A DNA stretch of 64,000 bases from Eunapius fragilis (Eukaryota; Porifera; Demospongiae; Spongillida; Spongillidae). Both the position numbers and the translations under genes were made by a program. The DNA is taken from positions 13,367,232-13,431,231 of the forward strand of contig OY811971.1 in NCBI GenBank assembly GCA_963681505.1. Direction: 5' to 3'. The notes under the pieces are model-generated. The model saw nothing but the letters and a program-made list of their open reading frames with translations. It was not told the DNA's origin and ran no database searches. Shown here piece after piece: positions 1-35,759 of this stretch (positions within the stretch are counted from its first letter, which is position 1; each line of letters opens with the position of its first letter).

Positions 1-666
1 ATCCATGCTCGGCCTCATTGAGGTACATGTATTTCTGCGCCCATTCCAAACATTTGAGCTTGTTTGGCTTGTAAATCAGCTGGCAGTAGGCTGTTCCACA
101 AAACGTCCAGCCTATAGTTGTTCGGCACCTCAAAATGGTCCTAATTGATAAGTAATGGCCACGAGAAATAACAGCGAGTGCAGCTGGAAAGCGCTAGTCT
201 CATCATCCTTCCTCATTTGTTCCTCAATGATTTGTTTTATTCCTTCTGTGATTTTAGATGGCCTACCACTACCAGGACGTCTTCCGATGCTTCCAGTCTC
301 CTTGTAACGTCTAATGAACTTACAGATCCCACTTCTCGAAGTTATCATGCCCTCTTTCATTAAACATTTGTGTACATTGATAGACCCACAACCCTTGAAA
401 TAGAATAGAATCCACAATTGTTTATAGCTCGAGTACACCATCCCATGTACTGTGCTACAATTATACGATGGAAGTACATGTAGCAGAAAATTTTACTTTA
501 GGGCATAGTCTCCATAAAACGTTACGTTCCATAAAAATGCTACGTTCCACAAACGCAATGTTCCCAAAACGCTATGCTAATCCAACGCAACCGGTATGTC
601 AACATTAATCACATGCGACGCTAACGCTATGCAAACGTTACGTGTACTTTCTTGTGACCGCTACTG
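1..666 (-). mobile_element. Tc1/mariner-like element, copy A, cut by the window edge
   Basis: The minus-strand frame from 441 gives the N-terminal helix-turn-helix half of a Tc1-type transposase: it starts MVYSSYKQLW and includes GSGRPSKITEG and MRKDDETSA. It is clearly homologous to the copy at 31085. After about residue 88 the frame shifts once near 178; the other frame then continues the family sequence (CRTTIGWTFCGTAYC) to the edge. The outer end, CAGTAGCGGTC read inward from 666, matches the ends of the 30886-35586 element, and TA at 667-668 is the expected target dinucleotide. About 220 bp lie between the TIR tip and the start codon, filled with ACGTTACG/ACGTTCC-like short repeats. The catalytic half lies outside the window. 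Confidence 0.85.
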
Positions 667-1849: not shown

Positions 1850-4800
1850 GTTTCCTTTTGTGTTCAACAATGCACTCTGCATCTACCTGTATGGTAGTAT
1901 AGCGCATGCGCTATAGCTGCTCTTATTATGGACATGCGCAGTGTTTACACCTGAGGGTATTTAATGACGTGCTGTACAATCTTATTGGATTAAACACTTT
2001 GATTGCTACACTGGTGTCAGAAGTGGGATCGGACCAAATGCTACATGGCTGAGCAGGAAGAGCGGAAGGCTGTTTGGTTTAGCGCTAGACCGCCCGCTCG
2101 GTTTGCTAAGGGTGCTGACTTCAATCTCTGGGTCAAAAGATTAGAACTGTACCTCAGGGAAGCGAAGGTTCCAGATAACAAGTGAGGAGAGGAGTTGGTA
2201 GCGCTGTTGGAAGACGACGCCTTTCGGGTAGTGAGTCAGTCGGATTTTGTTAGTGGTGACGGGGTGGAGTATGAGGAGGTGAAGAAATGTCTGCAGGAGC
2301 AGTATGCGCCAAAAGGAGTCGAACTGGAATGGCAGCGCTAGCTGCACTCAGCCCACCAGGAGAGACCCGAGACCCTGTTAGAATTTTCAGGGCGGTTACG
2401 GATGCTGGCAGACAAGGTTTACCCTTCGTGGTCGGCGGAAAGACGACATGAAATGGCGAGTGAGCAATTTATTTAATTAATCTCTCCTGTGCAGATGAGT
2501 CTTTGGAGGCTGCACTTGCTTTGGCTAGCCTGTGGAAATCAGTGAAGCTGGCTCAACAAAGCCTACGCGGAGAGAAACAGGGGTCAGGTGCGAGTCTTGC
2601 CGTGTCAGGTGAACGAGACCTGGTACAAGGTGCATTGCAAGCTAATACGGTGGAAGGGTTGGCGTTACAAGTCCAACAGCTGTCACAGGAGATTAGTAAG
2701 TTGTCAAGTCAGGAAGTCGGTGAGAAAAGGAGCACTCCGAAAAGGGTCCCTGTTTGTTGGAACTGCAAGCAAAAAGGGCACATGCGGCGCAATTGTCCTC
2801 AGCGGAAGGAACGGAGTGTATCTCTGAAGGAGATTGGGAAGTGTCGGTCAGTGAAGTATACATCGGCTGTGGCAGGCACGTTGACACTGCAGGGAATGGT
2901 TGGGGGTCGTCCCACAAGTATGCTAGTGGATACAAGATCATCTGTTACTCTTGTGCATGAAAAAGTGTCGAATGACATTTCTCAAGACAGGAAACTCTTG
3001 ACACCCCAATGTCCTGTGATGGCAGTTAATGGAGACTCGCTAAGTCTATGTGGACAGATTGACCTTGCTCTTACAGTGGGAAAGCATGTGAGAACTCATA
3101 CTGTCTTTGTGCGTGAGATGACGCAGGAGTGTTTATTGGGAACAGACTTTCTAGAACAATACGGGTGTGTTGTTGACCTCGGGAGAAGAACAATGATAAT
3201 GTTAGGCGAAACAATACCCCTAGACACCTTGTACGGGTCGTGTATATGTACATGTCATTGTTTGTACAGGAGACAGCTGTCGTGCCACCCTATCACGAGA
3301 TACCATTGCAGGTTCAGTTGGAAGGTGCGAAAACAGACGGGGACTATGTGGGTCTGTTCCAGCCAAAAGCGGAAATGTCTACTCAACGTGGACTTCTGTT
3401 TGCCTGTCCTGTATCTCCTGTCCATGATGGCAAAGCAGTAGTTCAGCTGGTGAACCCCTCTGCAGTTCCTGTAACACTGCATTGCAAGGAGAAGGTTGGT
3501 CAGGTATCCCCATGGGATGAAAGGGAGGTAGTGAATATGGTTGAGCCTGCATTGGGCACATGGCTTCCAGTTCGATCAACAGAGGCAATTAGTAAAGCAG
3601 TTGGGGAATTAATGGGTGACAGACACATCGGGGTTGTCAAGGGAGGAGTGTGCTAAGTTGAAAGCAATTTTACATCATTTCTCAGATGTAATTTCTGTAG
3701 GTGACGGTGAATTAGGGTGTACCAATGTCTTACATCATACCATCAACTCAGGTGACACTCCCCTGTTCATAAGCCGGCGCGGAGGCTTCCGTTTCATCAA
3801 CGTGACGTGGTACAGAAAATGATCCAGGGAAAGCTCCAACAGGGGATAATAGAGCCGTCTGGAGGAGCTTGGGCCTTGCCTATTGTTCTGGTTAGAAAAA
3901 AGGACGGTTCATACAGGTTTTGTGTAGATTTTCGTCGCCTGAAAAGCACTACAAAAAGACGTGCACCCTCTTCCCAGGATTGATGATGCTCTGGACACTT
4001 GATCCGGCTCCAAGTGGTTTTCAACATTTGATTTGGCAAATGGCTACTGGCAGGTCGAAATGGATCCTGCAGACAAGGAGAAAACTGAGTTCATCACTCC
4101 GTTTGGTCTACATCAGTTCCGAATAATGCTGTTCGGACTAACGAACGCTCCAAGCACATTTCAGCGGTTAATGAGTATGGTCCTGGCAGGACACAGTTGG
4201 GTAACTTGCTTGGTATACCTTGATGATATCATTTTAAGTCGAACGGTGGAAGAGCACTTAATGCGGCTTACAGAGGTGCTACAGAGGCTTAAGGAGGCGG
4301 GGCTGAAGATCAAGCCTAGCAAATGTCATCTACTTTGCAAGAGTATGCGGTATCTGGGCTACATGGTTTCAGAGAAGGGTATTGCTGCGGATGCTGACAA
4401 GATCAAGTGTGTCGAAAACTGGCCTACGCCCACTGACCACGAACGCCTGCGACAGTTCTTGGGGTTTGCTTCCTATTATAGGAAATTCATTCGTAATTTT
4501 GCAGACACCGCTGCTCCTCTTCATGCACTAACAGAAAAATCCAAACCCTGGTACTGGACAGAACTGTGTGATAAGGCATTTGTGGCTCAAAAGGGTAAGT
4601 TAGCTTCGCCCCCTATTTTATCCTTCCCACAGTTCGACAGAACATTTGTGGTTGATGCTGACGCCAGTCAGGAGGGTGTTGGAGCAGTACTATCACACTT
4701 GGACAGTGGAAGGGTGAGGCGCATATGCTATTAGGATTCTTACAAAGGCGGAATGCCAATATTGTGCAACGAGACGTGAGTTGTTGGCATTGGTATGGAT

Positions 4801-30600: not shown

Positions 30601-31084
30601 CAATTGTTACATAATTATTTGCAAACTACGAACATGTTTCCTTGTATACGGGTATAAATGTACCAGACCACAAACAAGTTTTTTTGTATGTGTGATGTGA
30701 TGTATGTGTTCATTTCAAGGCTTCATAACAGATCTCCAATTGTGAAATTGGGGAGGGTCAGAATAGGTTGAGCAAGTACAATGACTGAAACCTGTTATTC
30801 CTTTTCCTGCGACACCAAATATATGTGAACGTAAATGCAGACTCGGTTTTACCACGCAAGTTTCTCTTTTATAGATGTACATGTACAGTAGCGGTCAAAA
30901 AAAAGCATTACGTTTCGTTTTCGTAGAACGACCGTAGCACGATTGAACAGAATCGGTCGAACATCGTTCGAACATCGTTCAAACATCGTTTGTACAGTTT
31001 TGTTGATTATATAAACGATTGATACCGATTTACTAATCGCCACTGTTTTTATATAATCAGTACGTGAGCACACGTGTTTAAAAA

Positions 31085-32340
31085 ATGGTGTATAGTGAGT
31101 ACACGAAGCTGCGAATACTGTTTTACCATTTCAAGGGTTTGAAAGCTCCAACTTTCGCTCGATATCTTCAAGCAGAGAACTTCATTGTTCGCGACAGAAC
31201 GTAGCGATCTTCATAAAGAAGTACCGTCAAACTAAATCAGTATGTCAACAATCGGGATCGGGTAGACCCTCAAAACTCACTGCTGAAGTAAAGGCAATAG
31301 TGGAAGAAGAGATGAGAAAGGATGACGAAACGACTGCACACCAGTTGCACCAATTGCTTTTGTCACGCGGGTACAGAATTAGCCTCCGCACCATTTTACG
31401 CTGCAGGACCTCCCTTGGATGGACGTTTCGTGGAAGCGCGTATTGCCAACTAATCCGTGACGTTAACAAAGTGAAGCGGTTGGCTTGGGCAACAGCGAAT
31501 TTGGGGGAAACCTTTGATGACGTCATATGGACCGATGAGTGTACAGTACAACTCGAGAGCCACCGAAGGTTCGGCTGTAGAAAAATGGGTGAACCACCTA
31601 AACCCAAACCAAGGTATGTCTAATTTTTCGTGTATTTCTGCGAAATAACACTAAAAAAAATCTATACAGACCTAAACATCCCCTCAAAGTTCATGTGTGG
31701 GCTGGCATAAGTCGTCAAGGAAGAACAGGAATTTGTATTTTCGAGGGAATCATGAAGAAGGAACTGTTAGTCAACATTCTAGATACAACCCTTCTCCCTG
31801 CAGTTCAGAGGCTTTATCCTAGTGGGCACAGATTTATGCAGGACAATGACCCGTAACATACCTCAAGATATGCACAGGTGTGGCTTACACACAACGGAAT
31901 AAAATGGTGGAAAACACCTCCAGAGCCTCCTGATTTGAACCCGATCGAAAACTTATGGCATGAGCTCAAAGAGTATATCAGAAGAGAAGTGAAGCCAAAA
32001 GTTAAAAGTGAACTAATTGAAGGCATCAAAGCATTCTGGGCCACTGTAGATGTTGCAAAATGTAACAAGTACATCAACCATCTACGAAAGGTGATACCAA
32101 AGGTAGAACTTGGAGGTGAAAACACCTCCAGAGTCTCCTGATTTGAACCCGATCGAAAACTTATGCATGAGCTGAAAGAGTATATCAGAAGAGAAGTGAA
32201 GCCAAAAGTTAAAAGTGAACTAATTGAAGGCATCAAAGCATTCTGGGCCACTGTAGATGTTGCAAAATGTAACAAGTACATCAACCATCTACGAAAGGTG
32301 ATACCAAAGGTAGAACTTGGAGGTGTTGCTACTGGTTATT
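31085..32340 (+). pseudogene. Tc1-type DD34E transposase, broken
   Basis: It starts MVYSEYTKLRILFYHFKG, shifts near 31200, and continues FIKKYRQTK and GSGRPSKLTAEVKAIVEEEM through the paired-like DNA-binding region. The first catalytic Asp is in VIWTDECTVQL. A 52-nt intron (31619-31670, gtatgtc...tatacag) precedes PKHPLKVHVWAGIS. The second Asp is in FMQDNDP and the Glu in PPDLNPIENLWHELKEY, 34 residues apart, giving DD34E. A TAA at 31855 replaces the usual Lys or Arg codon after DNDP. The C-terminal 207 bp are tandemly duplicated. It is inactive because of the frameshift and the stop. Confidence 0.9.
31912..32325 (+). repeat. Tandem duplication (2 x ~207 bp) of the transposase 3' end
   Basis: The block beginning GAAAACACCTCCAGAG at 31911 recurs at 32118 and runs to GGTAGAACTTGGAGGTG in both. 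The two units differ at only a few sites, so the duplication is young. It repeats the catalytic-Glu region (DLNPIEN) twice. Confidence 0.9.
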
Positions 32341-32461
32341 AAATTATTTATATAAACTGCTTGTACATGTATTATGTTTGAGCAATTTGCTGCTAACCTG
32401 GCATACAATCTTGGATGCTTCCGGGGGGTGGGGGCATGCATGTCATACAGTGTCATCACCA

Positions 32462-33022
32462 CACCCACTATGTCATATGATACCGTCTTCACATCACCAC
32501 ACCCACCATCATACTATACCGTCTTCACATCACCACACCCACCATCATACATGTACTATACTGTCTTCACATCACCACATCCACCATCATACTATACCGT
32601 CTTCACATCACCACACCCACCATCATACTATACACCACACCCACCATCATACTATACCGTCTTCACATCACCATATCCATATCCACCATCATGCTATACC
32701 GTCTTCACATCACCACACCCACCATCATACTATACCGTCTTCACATCACCACACCCACCATCATACATGTACTATACTGTCTTCACATCACCACATCCAC
32801 CATCATACTATACCGTCTTCACATCACCACACCCACCATCATACTATACACCACACCCACCATCATGCTATACCGTCTTCACATCACCATATCCATATCC
32901 ACCATCATGCTATACCGTCTTCACATCACCACACCCACCATCATACTATACCGTCTTCACATCACCACACCCACCATCATACATGTACAATACTGTCTTC
33001 ACATCACCACACCCACTATGTC
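32462..33022. repeat. 36-bp minisatellite with higher-order structure
   Basis: The unit is about CCACCATCATACTATACCGT plus CTTCACATCACCACAC. Variant units (shortened TATACACCACACC, TCATACATGTACTATACTG, CCATATCCATATCC) recur in the same order twice, giving a ~215-bp higher-order repeat. It lies between the 3' ends of the transposase and the BEN gene. All three forward frames stay open (TVFTSPHPPSYY, SSHHHTHHHT, ITTPTIILYR), which is a by-product of the period and not evidence of a gene. Confidence 0.9.
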
Positions 33023-33076
33023 ATAATATAAGTGCCTACTCATTACCACATCCACATTGGTGCCTCTCTCTACAGC

Positions 33077-35359
33077 TTAATTACATGCACGAAGCCTTTT
33101 ACAGGCCTGCCCAATTGAATCACAACAGTTCTTCCAAATAGGCTCGAACTGCAATGGTGTGTTCCAAAACTGTGGCAGCTGCATCAGTAGAATTCTTTTT
33201 AATTCTTCTAGTTCCCTCACTGGCAAGCCTGGGAAACCCCTTTCTACAGCAACGGTACACTTCTTGAAAACATCATTCCCAAAAACTGCCTCTTTTGCTA
33301 ACTTCACAGCGAGGGTTGAAAGTTTCTTTGCATTGCAGAGGTGATGACTTGAACACACCACAGCATTCACACTCCTCAGCATTCCCTTCTGTATCTCACA
33401 GGAATCCAGAGTGATCCTTCCTTTCCTACATTCCTAAGAGGTAGTGGAGCTGGACATCCCACTGGTACGGCAGATAATGGCAGACCTGGATTTTCTCCAT
33501 GGTGAGAGGTGGATGGTACCTGGTGAACATCATGAACAGGAAGGGTAGAACTGGCCTGATTAGTGTAGTCAGGATCTGGTGTCGGAAGTGATGGAACGTG
33601 TGGTGATTGACTGAACTGAGGAATTGCACCAGTAGCAATTGACTGATACTGATAGGGTGTATGTGCTGCCTGTGGTGAAAGACCAAACTCAAGAGGCGCT
33701 GGTGTTAGTTGTCTGCAGTGAATAGCAGATACGGAGTGGATGGTGATATTTGGTTGTGACCACTGCAGACTGCAGGACTGAACGGTTGTTGTTGGTACAA
33801 CGTTGGAGTACTTGTACCCTGCCCTGAAAACCACTGTACTCCTGGAGCTGGATCTTGTCGTACTTGAACCCTCTCTAGGTTGTCCACACGCATGAGCAGG
33901 GTAGACAGTGACTGTTGGATTAAGTCTTGGGTAGCTATCACTGTTTGAAGGAGCTTTTCTACTCCCTCCAAAGCTGATTTCAAGCCCTTAACATCTTCAG
34001 TAAGCTCCATCACCTCCATTTCCAAAAAGAGTGGGTCTAAATGTTAAGAGTTCAAGGTCAATGATGATTCATGGTATTGTTAATGAACATTTACCTGAGT
34101 CACTCAGTTGGTCAGGTTCTGGATCACTCTCAACAACAACACAATCTCTCTGTAATAAAGAATGTACATTTGTATATAGAACTTAAATCTTATGATATAT
34201 CCATAAGTGGTGGCTTGTGTAAATATATCCTACCTGAGAGGAGGTGCCAGGGGCGGAGGCAGGCGCATTATCAGATAACTGTCAAATGATATTTATTTTT
34301 AATAACATAATAGCATCACAATACACATTTTTACCTCAGCAGTAGAATGAAGGCTGAGAACAGGAGAGGATATATTGCCAACAGGAGGTACATGTATGAC
34401 ATTTGAGCACTCTCCAGTGAAAAGAATAACACCTGTTGACAGACAAGGTTTAAATTCATACATTTTTATGAATGAATACATACTCTTGCCCTCAGCAACG
34501 TATCTTTGCATAATAACAAACGCTTCAGCATATGTATACCATGTACATGGACAGGTACCATTTTATTGAGTAGCGGGTAACGACAAATGGAATTGCGCAA
34601 TTTTAATTTTTGGGGGGAGGAGGCTAATGAGCGATTGCCTAATGTACATGTACATGTACGTGGTGTGTTTGTACATCACAGTTTAGTTTTTAATATTCGT
34701 TTCTGAAATCTACACTGTAGCAACGCTTTACCTGAACTATTTTGCCGCATTGTATGACATTTCTTATAGGGCTTAGTATTTGGGCGGCTCAAGAATTTGC
34801 CGATCGGTTTTTGTAAGCTAATAGCCTCTTACCAGGTTCTTTTTCCTTTTTGGTCTTTTTGGGGGGGTTCTTTGTCTTCGGCCCCATTCCTCCTTTTTTA
34901 GCCTTTTCCTTTGCTCCATCCTTGGTTTTGGCAACAGGAGCACGCTTTTTCCCTTTGCCAGCAGATACATCGGCGCGCACAGATGTTTCATAAGGAGTCC
35001 ATGTTTCCGCCTCGAATCTCTCTTGATATTCAGTGATTTCTTCAAGTGAACCTAGAAATGTATCAATACAGTCATGTCTATAAATCTTCAATGAAAATAG
35101 TTCTCTTACCTACGGCCGCAACCTTTCCATTAAACCTTCTTTTACCATCCGCCACAACACAATCTTCTCCGACTTTCAGGTCTCCACTGCCCAGCGCTTC
35201 AACTTTATCACCATCAATCACTGATACTGAGTTTTCCTCTGCCCAATACACCAAAATGAATACCTCTGCAAAAAGTTACCTATCGGATTAATAATTCACG
35301 CTCTATTTGATCTCACTGCAAAGGCTTGCGGATTCCTTCAAAAAACTCCTAAGCGTCAT
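33077..35359 (-). CDS. BEN-domain protein gene, seven or more exons, inside the Tc1 element
   Basis: Start ATG at 35357-35359 (MTLRSFLKESASLC). Exons 35359-35317, 35265-35110, 35051-34833, 34432-34335, 34280-34234, 34149-34095 and 34036 onward all join in frame with GT-AG introns of about 50-400 nt. In order they encode a small N-terminal domain (VFILVYWAEENSVSVIDGDK ... LKVGEDCVVADGKRRFNGKV), a Lys-rich linker, an acidic/Ser stretch and a coiled coil (EDVKGLKSALEGVEKLLQTV). The last part (about 33437-33077) holds a BEN domain: LAVKLAKEAVFGNDVFKKC, FPGLPVRELEELKRILL, FEPIWKNCCDSIGQACKRL. The join between 34036-33707 and the BEN exon is unresolved (a frame change or an extra intron). BEN domains bind DNA or chromatin proteins. 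A role in element silencing, insulation or targeting is inference. Confidence 0.75.
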
Positions 35360-35759
35360 CGTTCACACGTATCGTTGGTCCGTAAAAATGAACGATGCAC
35401 TAAACACGTGGTTTAAAGAATTTGTTATAAATGCGTGCACATCGTTAACAAAAAAGGTGTCAATGATCGGCTTCGTATCGACTTCGTTCTGACTTCGTTC
35501 TGACTTCGTTTTTTAAAACCATACGCTACTGTAAAACGATCGTTCTACGAAAACGAAACGTAATGCTTTTTTTTTTACCGCTACTGTACACAAAGATAGT
35601 TAGGAGTAAATCTATACCCTAGCTGACAGTGAAAAAAAAAACAGTGAGTTGTAAATACTGTCATGAGAAAAACATAGGAACCTCTGGCCTACCTGCACAC
35701 CGATGATCACTGAAAACCTGTTGCCATGCAAGGTAAGTATGACTACATGCAACATGTGG

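Follow-up and report, generated by a model that had tools for sequence, protein, structure and literature searches.

Does a spliced gene that lies between the inverted ends of a Tc1/mariner transposon belong to that transposon, or is it a host gene caught between two such ends? The question is raised by a locus of the sponge Eunapius fragilis, within a stretch of 64,000 nucleotides (contig OY811971.1, positions 13,367,232 to 13,431,231) that we call the window and number from its first letter. Direct reading of the window places inverted ends at 30886 and 35586, each adjoined by TA and together spanning 4701 bp, as a preliminary description of the locus had claimed when it put the enclosed length at about 4.7 kb. 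Between them lie a two-exon Tc1-type transposase on the plus strand and, convergent with it, a seven-exon gene on the minus strand that ends in a BEN domain; both genes are damaged in this copy. Comparison across the genome indicates that the element is one decayed member of an unusual two-gene Tc1/mariner lineage and not a one-off accident. The label "cargo" that had been given to the gene is right in that a spliced BEN gene does sit between Tc1-type ends, and recurs so elsewhere; it is too narrow for what, judged by sequence, is the recurrent second gene of a whole family lineage in the E. fragilis genome.

The pairing of the two genes was counted over a search genome of 219 Mb in 24 contigs, with the window on contig C1. 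Seven Wnt matches above the Pfam cut-off, at three places, mark this genome as an animal's, and so low a number of Wnt genes would be in keeping with a sponge. The BEN protein piece matches 82 genome places and transposase exon 1 at least 166, the transposase counts being lower bounds because 150 of 333 candidates were scored. For the pairing count, the 11 weakest BEN places (E above 0.001) were dropped, leaving 71, some of which are two pieces of one copy, and the 150 listed of the 166 transposase matches were used. A listed transposase lies within 5 kb of 44 of the 71 BEN places (E<0.001), and 42 of these 44 pairs are convergent, against a mean of 0.98 and a maximum of 6 in 500 trials of uniform random placement. 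The count was also made from the transposase side, with one weak BEN match re-added (contig C10, E 0.003) together with a place on C1 from the initial BEN search. Here 25 of the 62 strongest transposase places lie between paired ends of the window family without a BEN gene, mostly in short forms, and 25 of the remaining 37 have a convergent BEN match at most 8.5 kb downstream.

Three further families are represented by elements read over their whole length. L074 (7.3 kb, 48-bp inverted ends), L075 (5.25 kb, 58-bp ends) and L076 (7.9 kb, 62-bp ends) each enclose both genes, with TA adjoining; L074 and L075 start with CAGTAGYGGTCAAA beside the TA, and L076 with CAGTATCGGTCAA. The part that they share with the window element exceeds the BEN domain, because the domain encoded by the second BEN exon is matched in L074, L075 and L076 (E 4.5e-8, 1.1e-6 and 2.2e-4, respectively). 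Next to the tip, L074 and L075 also have similar first exons that open in an LRxxLK-like way, recognised by eye, and L076 has one recognised by a weak match (E 1.8). Together with the window family, these three make four with a common plan: an end, a subterminal stretch, the transposase, a tandem array, a convergent BEN gene of several exons whose start adjoins the opposite tip, and the other end. The array occupies the same place in all four and is built of unrelated units: 36 bp in the window copy, where the minisatellite lies between the convergent gene ends at 32454-33016, 38 bp in L074 (2046-4639), 28 bp in L075 (1861-2380) and about 61 bp, as estimated from the offsets of repeated matches, in L076 (about 1995-3518). 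Our guess is that such an array halts convergent read-through.

Relatives of these elements were found as well. L077 and L078, with CAGTAGCGGTCAAA ends, lengths of about 5.7-6.7 kb, a transposase start and long tandem repeats, appear to be large, non-autonomous relatives, and there are other end pairs measuring about 6-6.7 kb. L002, a locus on contig C11, has a BEN domain and, weakly matched (E 0.002), the N-terminal domain encoded by BEN exon 2 as well; the 3.2 kb examined there yielded no transposase match, and this BEN gene may represent the host source. At L003 (C1:13449352, about 18 kb to the right of the window), a BEN domain above the Pfam cut-off stands opposite a Tc1-like transposase that is distantly related (37% identical), so that the pairing of BEN and transposase may predate the families studied here.

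Within the window family itself, the 29-base core of the end, allowing up to 3 mismatches, occurs at 75 genome places, and its reversed control at none. These cores form 34 pairs, 27 of them shorter than 1 kb. The short forms that were examined as loci mostly match about 570 bp at the left and 240 bp at the right of the window element, and are thus internal deletions of it. Three pairs of 4.6-5.2 kb carry both the transposase and the BEN gene: the window copy, L064 and L065. The preliminary description had proposed a search for other end pairs flanking a BEN gene, and had named short copies without BEN, together with a single-copy ortholog of the gene at this locus in related species, as the outcome that would overturn it; the result falls between the two, with most pairs short and two further full-length pairs holding BEN. 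The flanks of the three full copies (about 400-500 bp on each side) show no mutual match, so the copies are separate insertions, and segmental duplication is disfavoured on the same ground. The left flank of the window copy has no second match in the genome; its right flank has 96, mostly inside one TG-rich stretch, of which the two best non-self matches cover about three quarters of it at 81-82% identity (40 of 965 candidates scored). The BEN gene is broken somewhere in each of the three full copies. In L065 both transposase exons are open, as is the last BEN exon (324 aa); BEN exon 3 there is 11 nt longer than that of the window copy, which changes the frame. L064 shows matches in two frames for each of transposase exon 2 and BEN exon 7; an element of about 800 bp with CAGTAGTGGTCAAA ends (1540-2337) is inserted between its BEN exons 3 and 5. 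L073 is a fourth, diverged BEN copy (exon 7 82% identical), in which no transposase match was found.

The decay of the window copy bears on what had been said of selection. That its transposase is broken was correct: exon 1 is frameshifted, and exon 2, besides a stop at 31854-31856, has 207 bp duplicated within 31910-32325. The BEN exons had been called clean, which they are not, as exon 7 has two frameshifts relative to L065; with both genes damaged, selection on the BEN gene cannot be read from this copy, contrary to what had been supposed. The dN/dS comparison suggested for copies of one family was uninformative, since young copies differ by few changes and the ratios run from 0.25 to 1.8. 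Only comparisons between families reveal constraint, and they reveal it on both genes. In nine families, with F3 (L039) left out for want of a single-frame transposase exon, distances in the BEN domain and in transposase exon 2 agree closely (Mantel r 0.94, equalled or exceeded in 2 of 20000 permutations), also without the most distant family (r 0.91; 3 of 20000). Among the eight closer families, minus the pair L063-L076, BEN pN is 0.24-0.49, with pS at 0.68-1.0, near saturation, and protein identity at 35-66%; transposase pN is lower than BEN pN in this comparison. No stop interrupts the matched last-exon BEN frame in 33 of 37 cases, a sample that is favourable because it was drawn from the 30 BEN places of highest score together with some copies retrieved again; in the L074 family the frame is open over 395-421 aa in all five copies. 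Layout, agreement of distances and constraint are in this sense established at the level of sequence. The BEN gene seems to be a long-time companion of the transposase, the two having been inherited together of old under selection, and the case for this rests on layout and distances, not on tree topology.

The structure of the BEN gene was likewise described correctly for the window copy, as a minus-strand gene of seven exons with GT-AG introns that starts 227 bp from the right tip. Its first ATG is at 35359, and exons 1-6 form one continuous frame. By the reading of splice anchors, exon 1 (MTLRSFLK...) lies at 35317-35359, exon 2, with the VYWxEExSVSV domain mentioned above, at 35110-35265, the Lys-rich exon 3 at 34833-35051, exon 4 at 34335-34432, exon 5 at 34234-34278 and exon 6 at 34095-34149. 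Exon 7 (33077-34036) contains the BEN domain at 33077-33433. Strict splice anchors recovered all seven exons in the window copy and four of seven in each of L065 and L064, where exons 2, 4 and 7 were missed, so only in the window copy has the complete chain been verified. The BEN domain that had been recognised in this gene is confirmed through relatives rather than by a direct Pfam match: at the Pfam cut-off neither the window copy nor L065 matches PF10523, and a domain of the same genome that is 56% identical to the one in the window passes that cut-off. Six of the 28 members of alignment A1 match PF10523 at E 0.01. Searched against PDB, the A1 profile scores best, though weakly, with BEN chains of BEND3 (E 0.015, 0.023 and 0.037), and the single BEN protein gave one match at chance level. 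The relatives in this way link the domain by homology to accepted BEN domains. Its predicted structure is mostly helical and confident (pLDDT 92), and a BEN-type protein of this kind is probably DNA-binding.

The transposase and the ends assign the element to Tc1/mariner. The left terminal inverted repeat (30886-30935, plus strand) starts with CAGTAGCGGTCAAA, and the right one (35536-35586, minus strand) was delimited by comparing the ends with each other; like other Tc1/mariner ends, they begin with CAGT. The TA dinucleotides at 30884-30885 and 35587-35588 are those expected of a target-site duplication, and TA is also found on both sides of L064, L068, L072, L074, L075, L076, L077 and L078, and on one side only of L065. 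Transposase exon 1 (31085-31613, limits set by eye) encodes the helix-turn-helix (HTH) part and the first catalytic D, and its counterpart in L065 is a single open frame. Exon 2 (31670-32342) encodes the DDE_3 part; in L065 it matches PF13358 above the Pfam cut-off (E 5.2e-16), and 34 residues, counted by eye in the L065 translation, separate the second D from the E, the DD34E spacing. A piece of another transposase of the same clade lies at the left edge of the window (1-399, minus strand).

If the BEN protein served the element, its own tips would be a plausible place of action, and these are distinctive. The left subterminal stretch (30936-31135) has an observed-to-expected CpG ratio (o/e) of 2.11 and an 11-bp array at 30952-30990, and the right one (35336-35535) a ratio of 2.18 and an 11-bp array at 35471-35510. 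Over six element copies of five families, the 200 bp past the inverted repeat reach a CpG o/e of 1.18-2.55, compared with interior medians of 0.21-0.44; the background median is 0.56 over 1175 overlapping intervals of the 64-kb window. Interior intervals that reach the lower of a copy's own tips number 9 of 71 in L065, 5 of 137 in L076 and 1 of 111 in L077. Short CpG-bearing tip repeats are present in four of the five families, as ACATCGTT in the window family, as AACGGCGTT-like repeats in L074 and L075, and as CGTAGCGTT in L077 and L078. The motif AACG-N(0-3)-CGTT was counted in the tips (300 bp each) and in the interior, giving 6 and 0 in L074, 5 and 0 in L075, 4 and 0 in L077, and 1 and 0 in the window copy, with no site in 86,367 bp of loci L038-L063. 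For palindromic half-sites, the number of interior pairs out of 200 that reach the best of the tips was 44 in the window copy and 32 in L065 (best half TTTT in both), 3 in L074 and 18 in L075 (AACG in both), 2 in L077 and 1 in L078 (ACGT in both), and 199 in L076. The best tip k-mers (k of 6, 7 and 8) were reached by 4, 5 and 9 of 300 shuffles in the window copy, 0, 0 and 0 in L065, 12, 7 and 0 in L074, 18, 27 and 65 in L075, and 141, 140 and 15 in L076. Interior intervals, tandem arrays included, often match the tip k-mer scores (5-52 of them), so that the motif-free results are mixed.

We propose that the window element is a decayed member of a two-gene lineage whose BEN gene was captured once and whose BEN protein acts at the tips of its own element, a joint explanation to which we assign a probability of roughly 0.6. 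We infer both that there was one capture and what the BEN protein does. A host-type BEN gene would have been taken up once by a Tc1/mariner ancestor, and its protein would bind the short CpG-bearing repeats in both tips. Bound there, it could keep the tips active, where both genes start (200 bp from the tip for the transposase and 227 bp for BEN in the window copy), or it could alternatively aid the transposase in recognising and pairing the ends; in either case BEN would be an element-encoded CpG-island factor, accessory or anti-silencing, and the short derivatives, which retain both tips, would be mobilised in trans. BANP and BEND3 prefer unmethylated CpG motifs, according to PMC11472053, and it is from this preference together with the CpG-rich, repeat-bearing tips that a BEN protein reading its own tips is suggested; binding of DNA or chromatin would fit such tips. 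A narrower version, possible and offered tentatively, is that BEN was taken over to keep the CpG-rich tips unmethylated and active in an animal genome that methylates its DNA, countering silencing by host methylation, with the array limiting antisense read-through.

Several observations weigh against this proposal. No convergent BEN match was found within 8.5 kb downstream of 12 of the 37 transposase places outside the BEN-less pairs of the window family, and L077 and L078 have tip repeats yet no BEN match within either. CpG enrichment is mild in the left tip of L076 (1.18, a value reached by 84 of the 1175 background intervals), and no AACG-CGTT-type motif was found in the L076 tips. This motif was picked after inspection, five more AACG-N(0-3)-CGTT sites lie in the window outside the element, and the test over every palindromic half-site picked out AACG in L074 and L075 only. 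The CpG-rich tips may be ordinary promoters. Finally, the maximum-likelihood trees of the two short proteins, with one starred fork each, partly conflict: the BEN tree groups F4-F5-F7 (95/99), and the transposase tree groups F1-F2 (100/99) and adds F4 and F7 to them (82/85). Exchange may explain part of this conflict. L063 (1443-3345) shares 96% identity with L076 over the transposase half; over the BEN end the figure is 78%, compared with 96% between L063 and L057, so BEN halves can be exchanged between families. The switch of identity between L063 and L076 adjoins the tandem array between the genes.

The same tips admit other roles for the protein. BEN could be a self-restraining or chromatin-recruiting repressor that binds the tips, silences the element and limits copy number. 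The anatomy expected of the tips would be identical, and PMC11472053 describes NACC1 and NACC2 as linked to corepressors and BEND3 as repressing; we nevertheless find this doubtful, as a pure repressor would be harder to retain under element-level selection across many families, and as the same source describes BANP, a BEN protein of CpG islands, as an activator. BEN could instead target the host in trans, for example its silencing or its promoters, as may BEN proteins carried by viruses, with the tips being no more than CpG-rich promoters. Such promoters could by themselves produce the tip signal; they would not account for the short tip repeats that four of the five families carry, and we hold this to be unlikely.

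Two further explanations would deny the gene any role in the element. Pieces of host BEN genes might have been captured independently by several Tc1 elements and hitch-hike as neutral passengers. Captured coding pieces are reported for an animal DNA transposon, Turmoil-1 of C. elegans (PMC2572040), and the broken BEN genes of all three full window-family copies and the partial conflict of the trees would agree with such a history. It has to contend with the near-constant convergent layout, the agreeing distances, the low pN beside saturated pS and the long BEN frames (395-421 aa) open throughout the L074 family, which make it very improbable. Chance bracketing of a single-copy host BEN gene by two Tc1 ends, for which the 27 of 34 end pairs below 1 kb might speak, we reject as hardly credible, given two other end-to-end copies with unmatched flanks and three families of like plan.

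Tc1/mariner elements are usually regarded as one-gene transposons and are usually 1.3-2 kb long. The lineage described here is like Tc1/mariner DD34E elements in its TA target, its short inverted ends starting with CAGT, its transposase with HTH and DDE_3 parts and DD34E spacing, and its internally deleted derivatives. It is unlike them in the length of the copies read (4.6-7.9 kb), the multi-exon BEN second gene, the CpG-rich tips (with repeats in four of the five families) and the intergenic tandem array. On the genomic comparisons it is a well-replicated two-gene Tc1/mariner lineage with BEN, and full-text searches of open-access papers, a body outside which lie most subscription papers, preprints and Repbase, listed none whose title or abstract opening reports a BEN gene in Tc1/mariner. 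A second gene kept for so long, from a family that includes CpG readers, offers a testable system for transposon-borne anti-silencing or end-binding factors, and the lineage is a possible route for the spread of BEN genes in animals. Among plant transposons, CACTA (Spm, with TnpA), MuDR and also PIF/Harbinger encode a transposase and a second protein, and that of Spm binds repeated subterminal motifs. Their transposase superfamilies and second proteins differ from those of the BEN element, so the comparison is functional only, extending to a transposase with a second protein whose binding, in the BEN element, is predicted. With BANP and BEND3 the element protein shares the BEN domain, the best PDB matches of the family profile being BEND3 chains; unlike these human host genes, the BEN gene is carried on a transposon, and the sequence similarity is weak (E 0.015). 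A parallel in gene content comes from the ciliate elements TBE and Tec, described in PMC7325037 as Tc1/mariner elements with genes beyond a DD34E transposase, TBE with a zinc-finger protein and a small open reading frame (ORF), Tec with a site-specific recombinase among three ORFs, and both restricted to ciliates. With BEN as its second gene and an animal as its host, the sponge lineage falls outside TBE and Tec as there described, and it shares with them a Tc1/mariner transposase accompanied by an extra gene, for which they provide the precedent.

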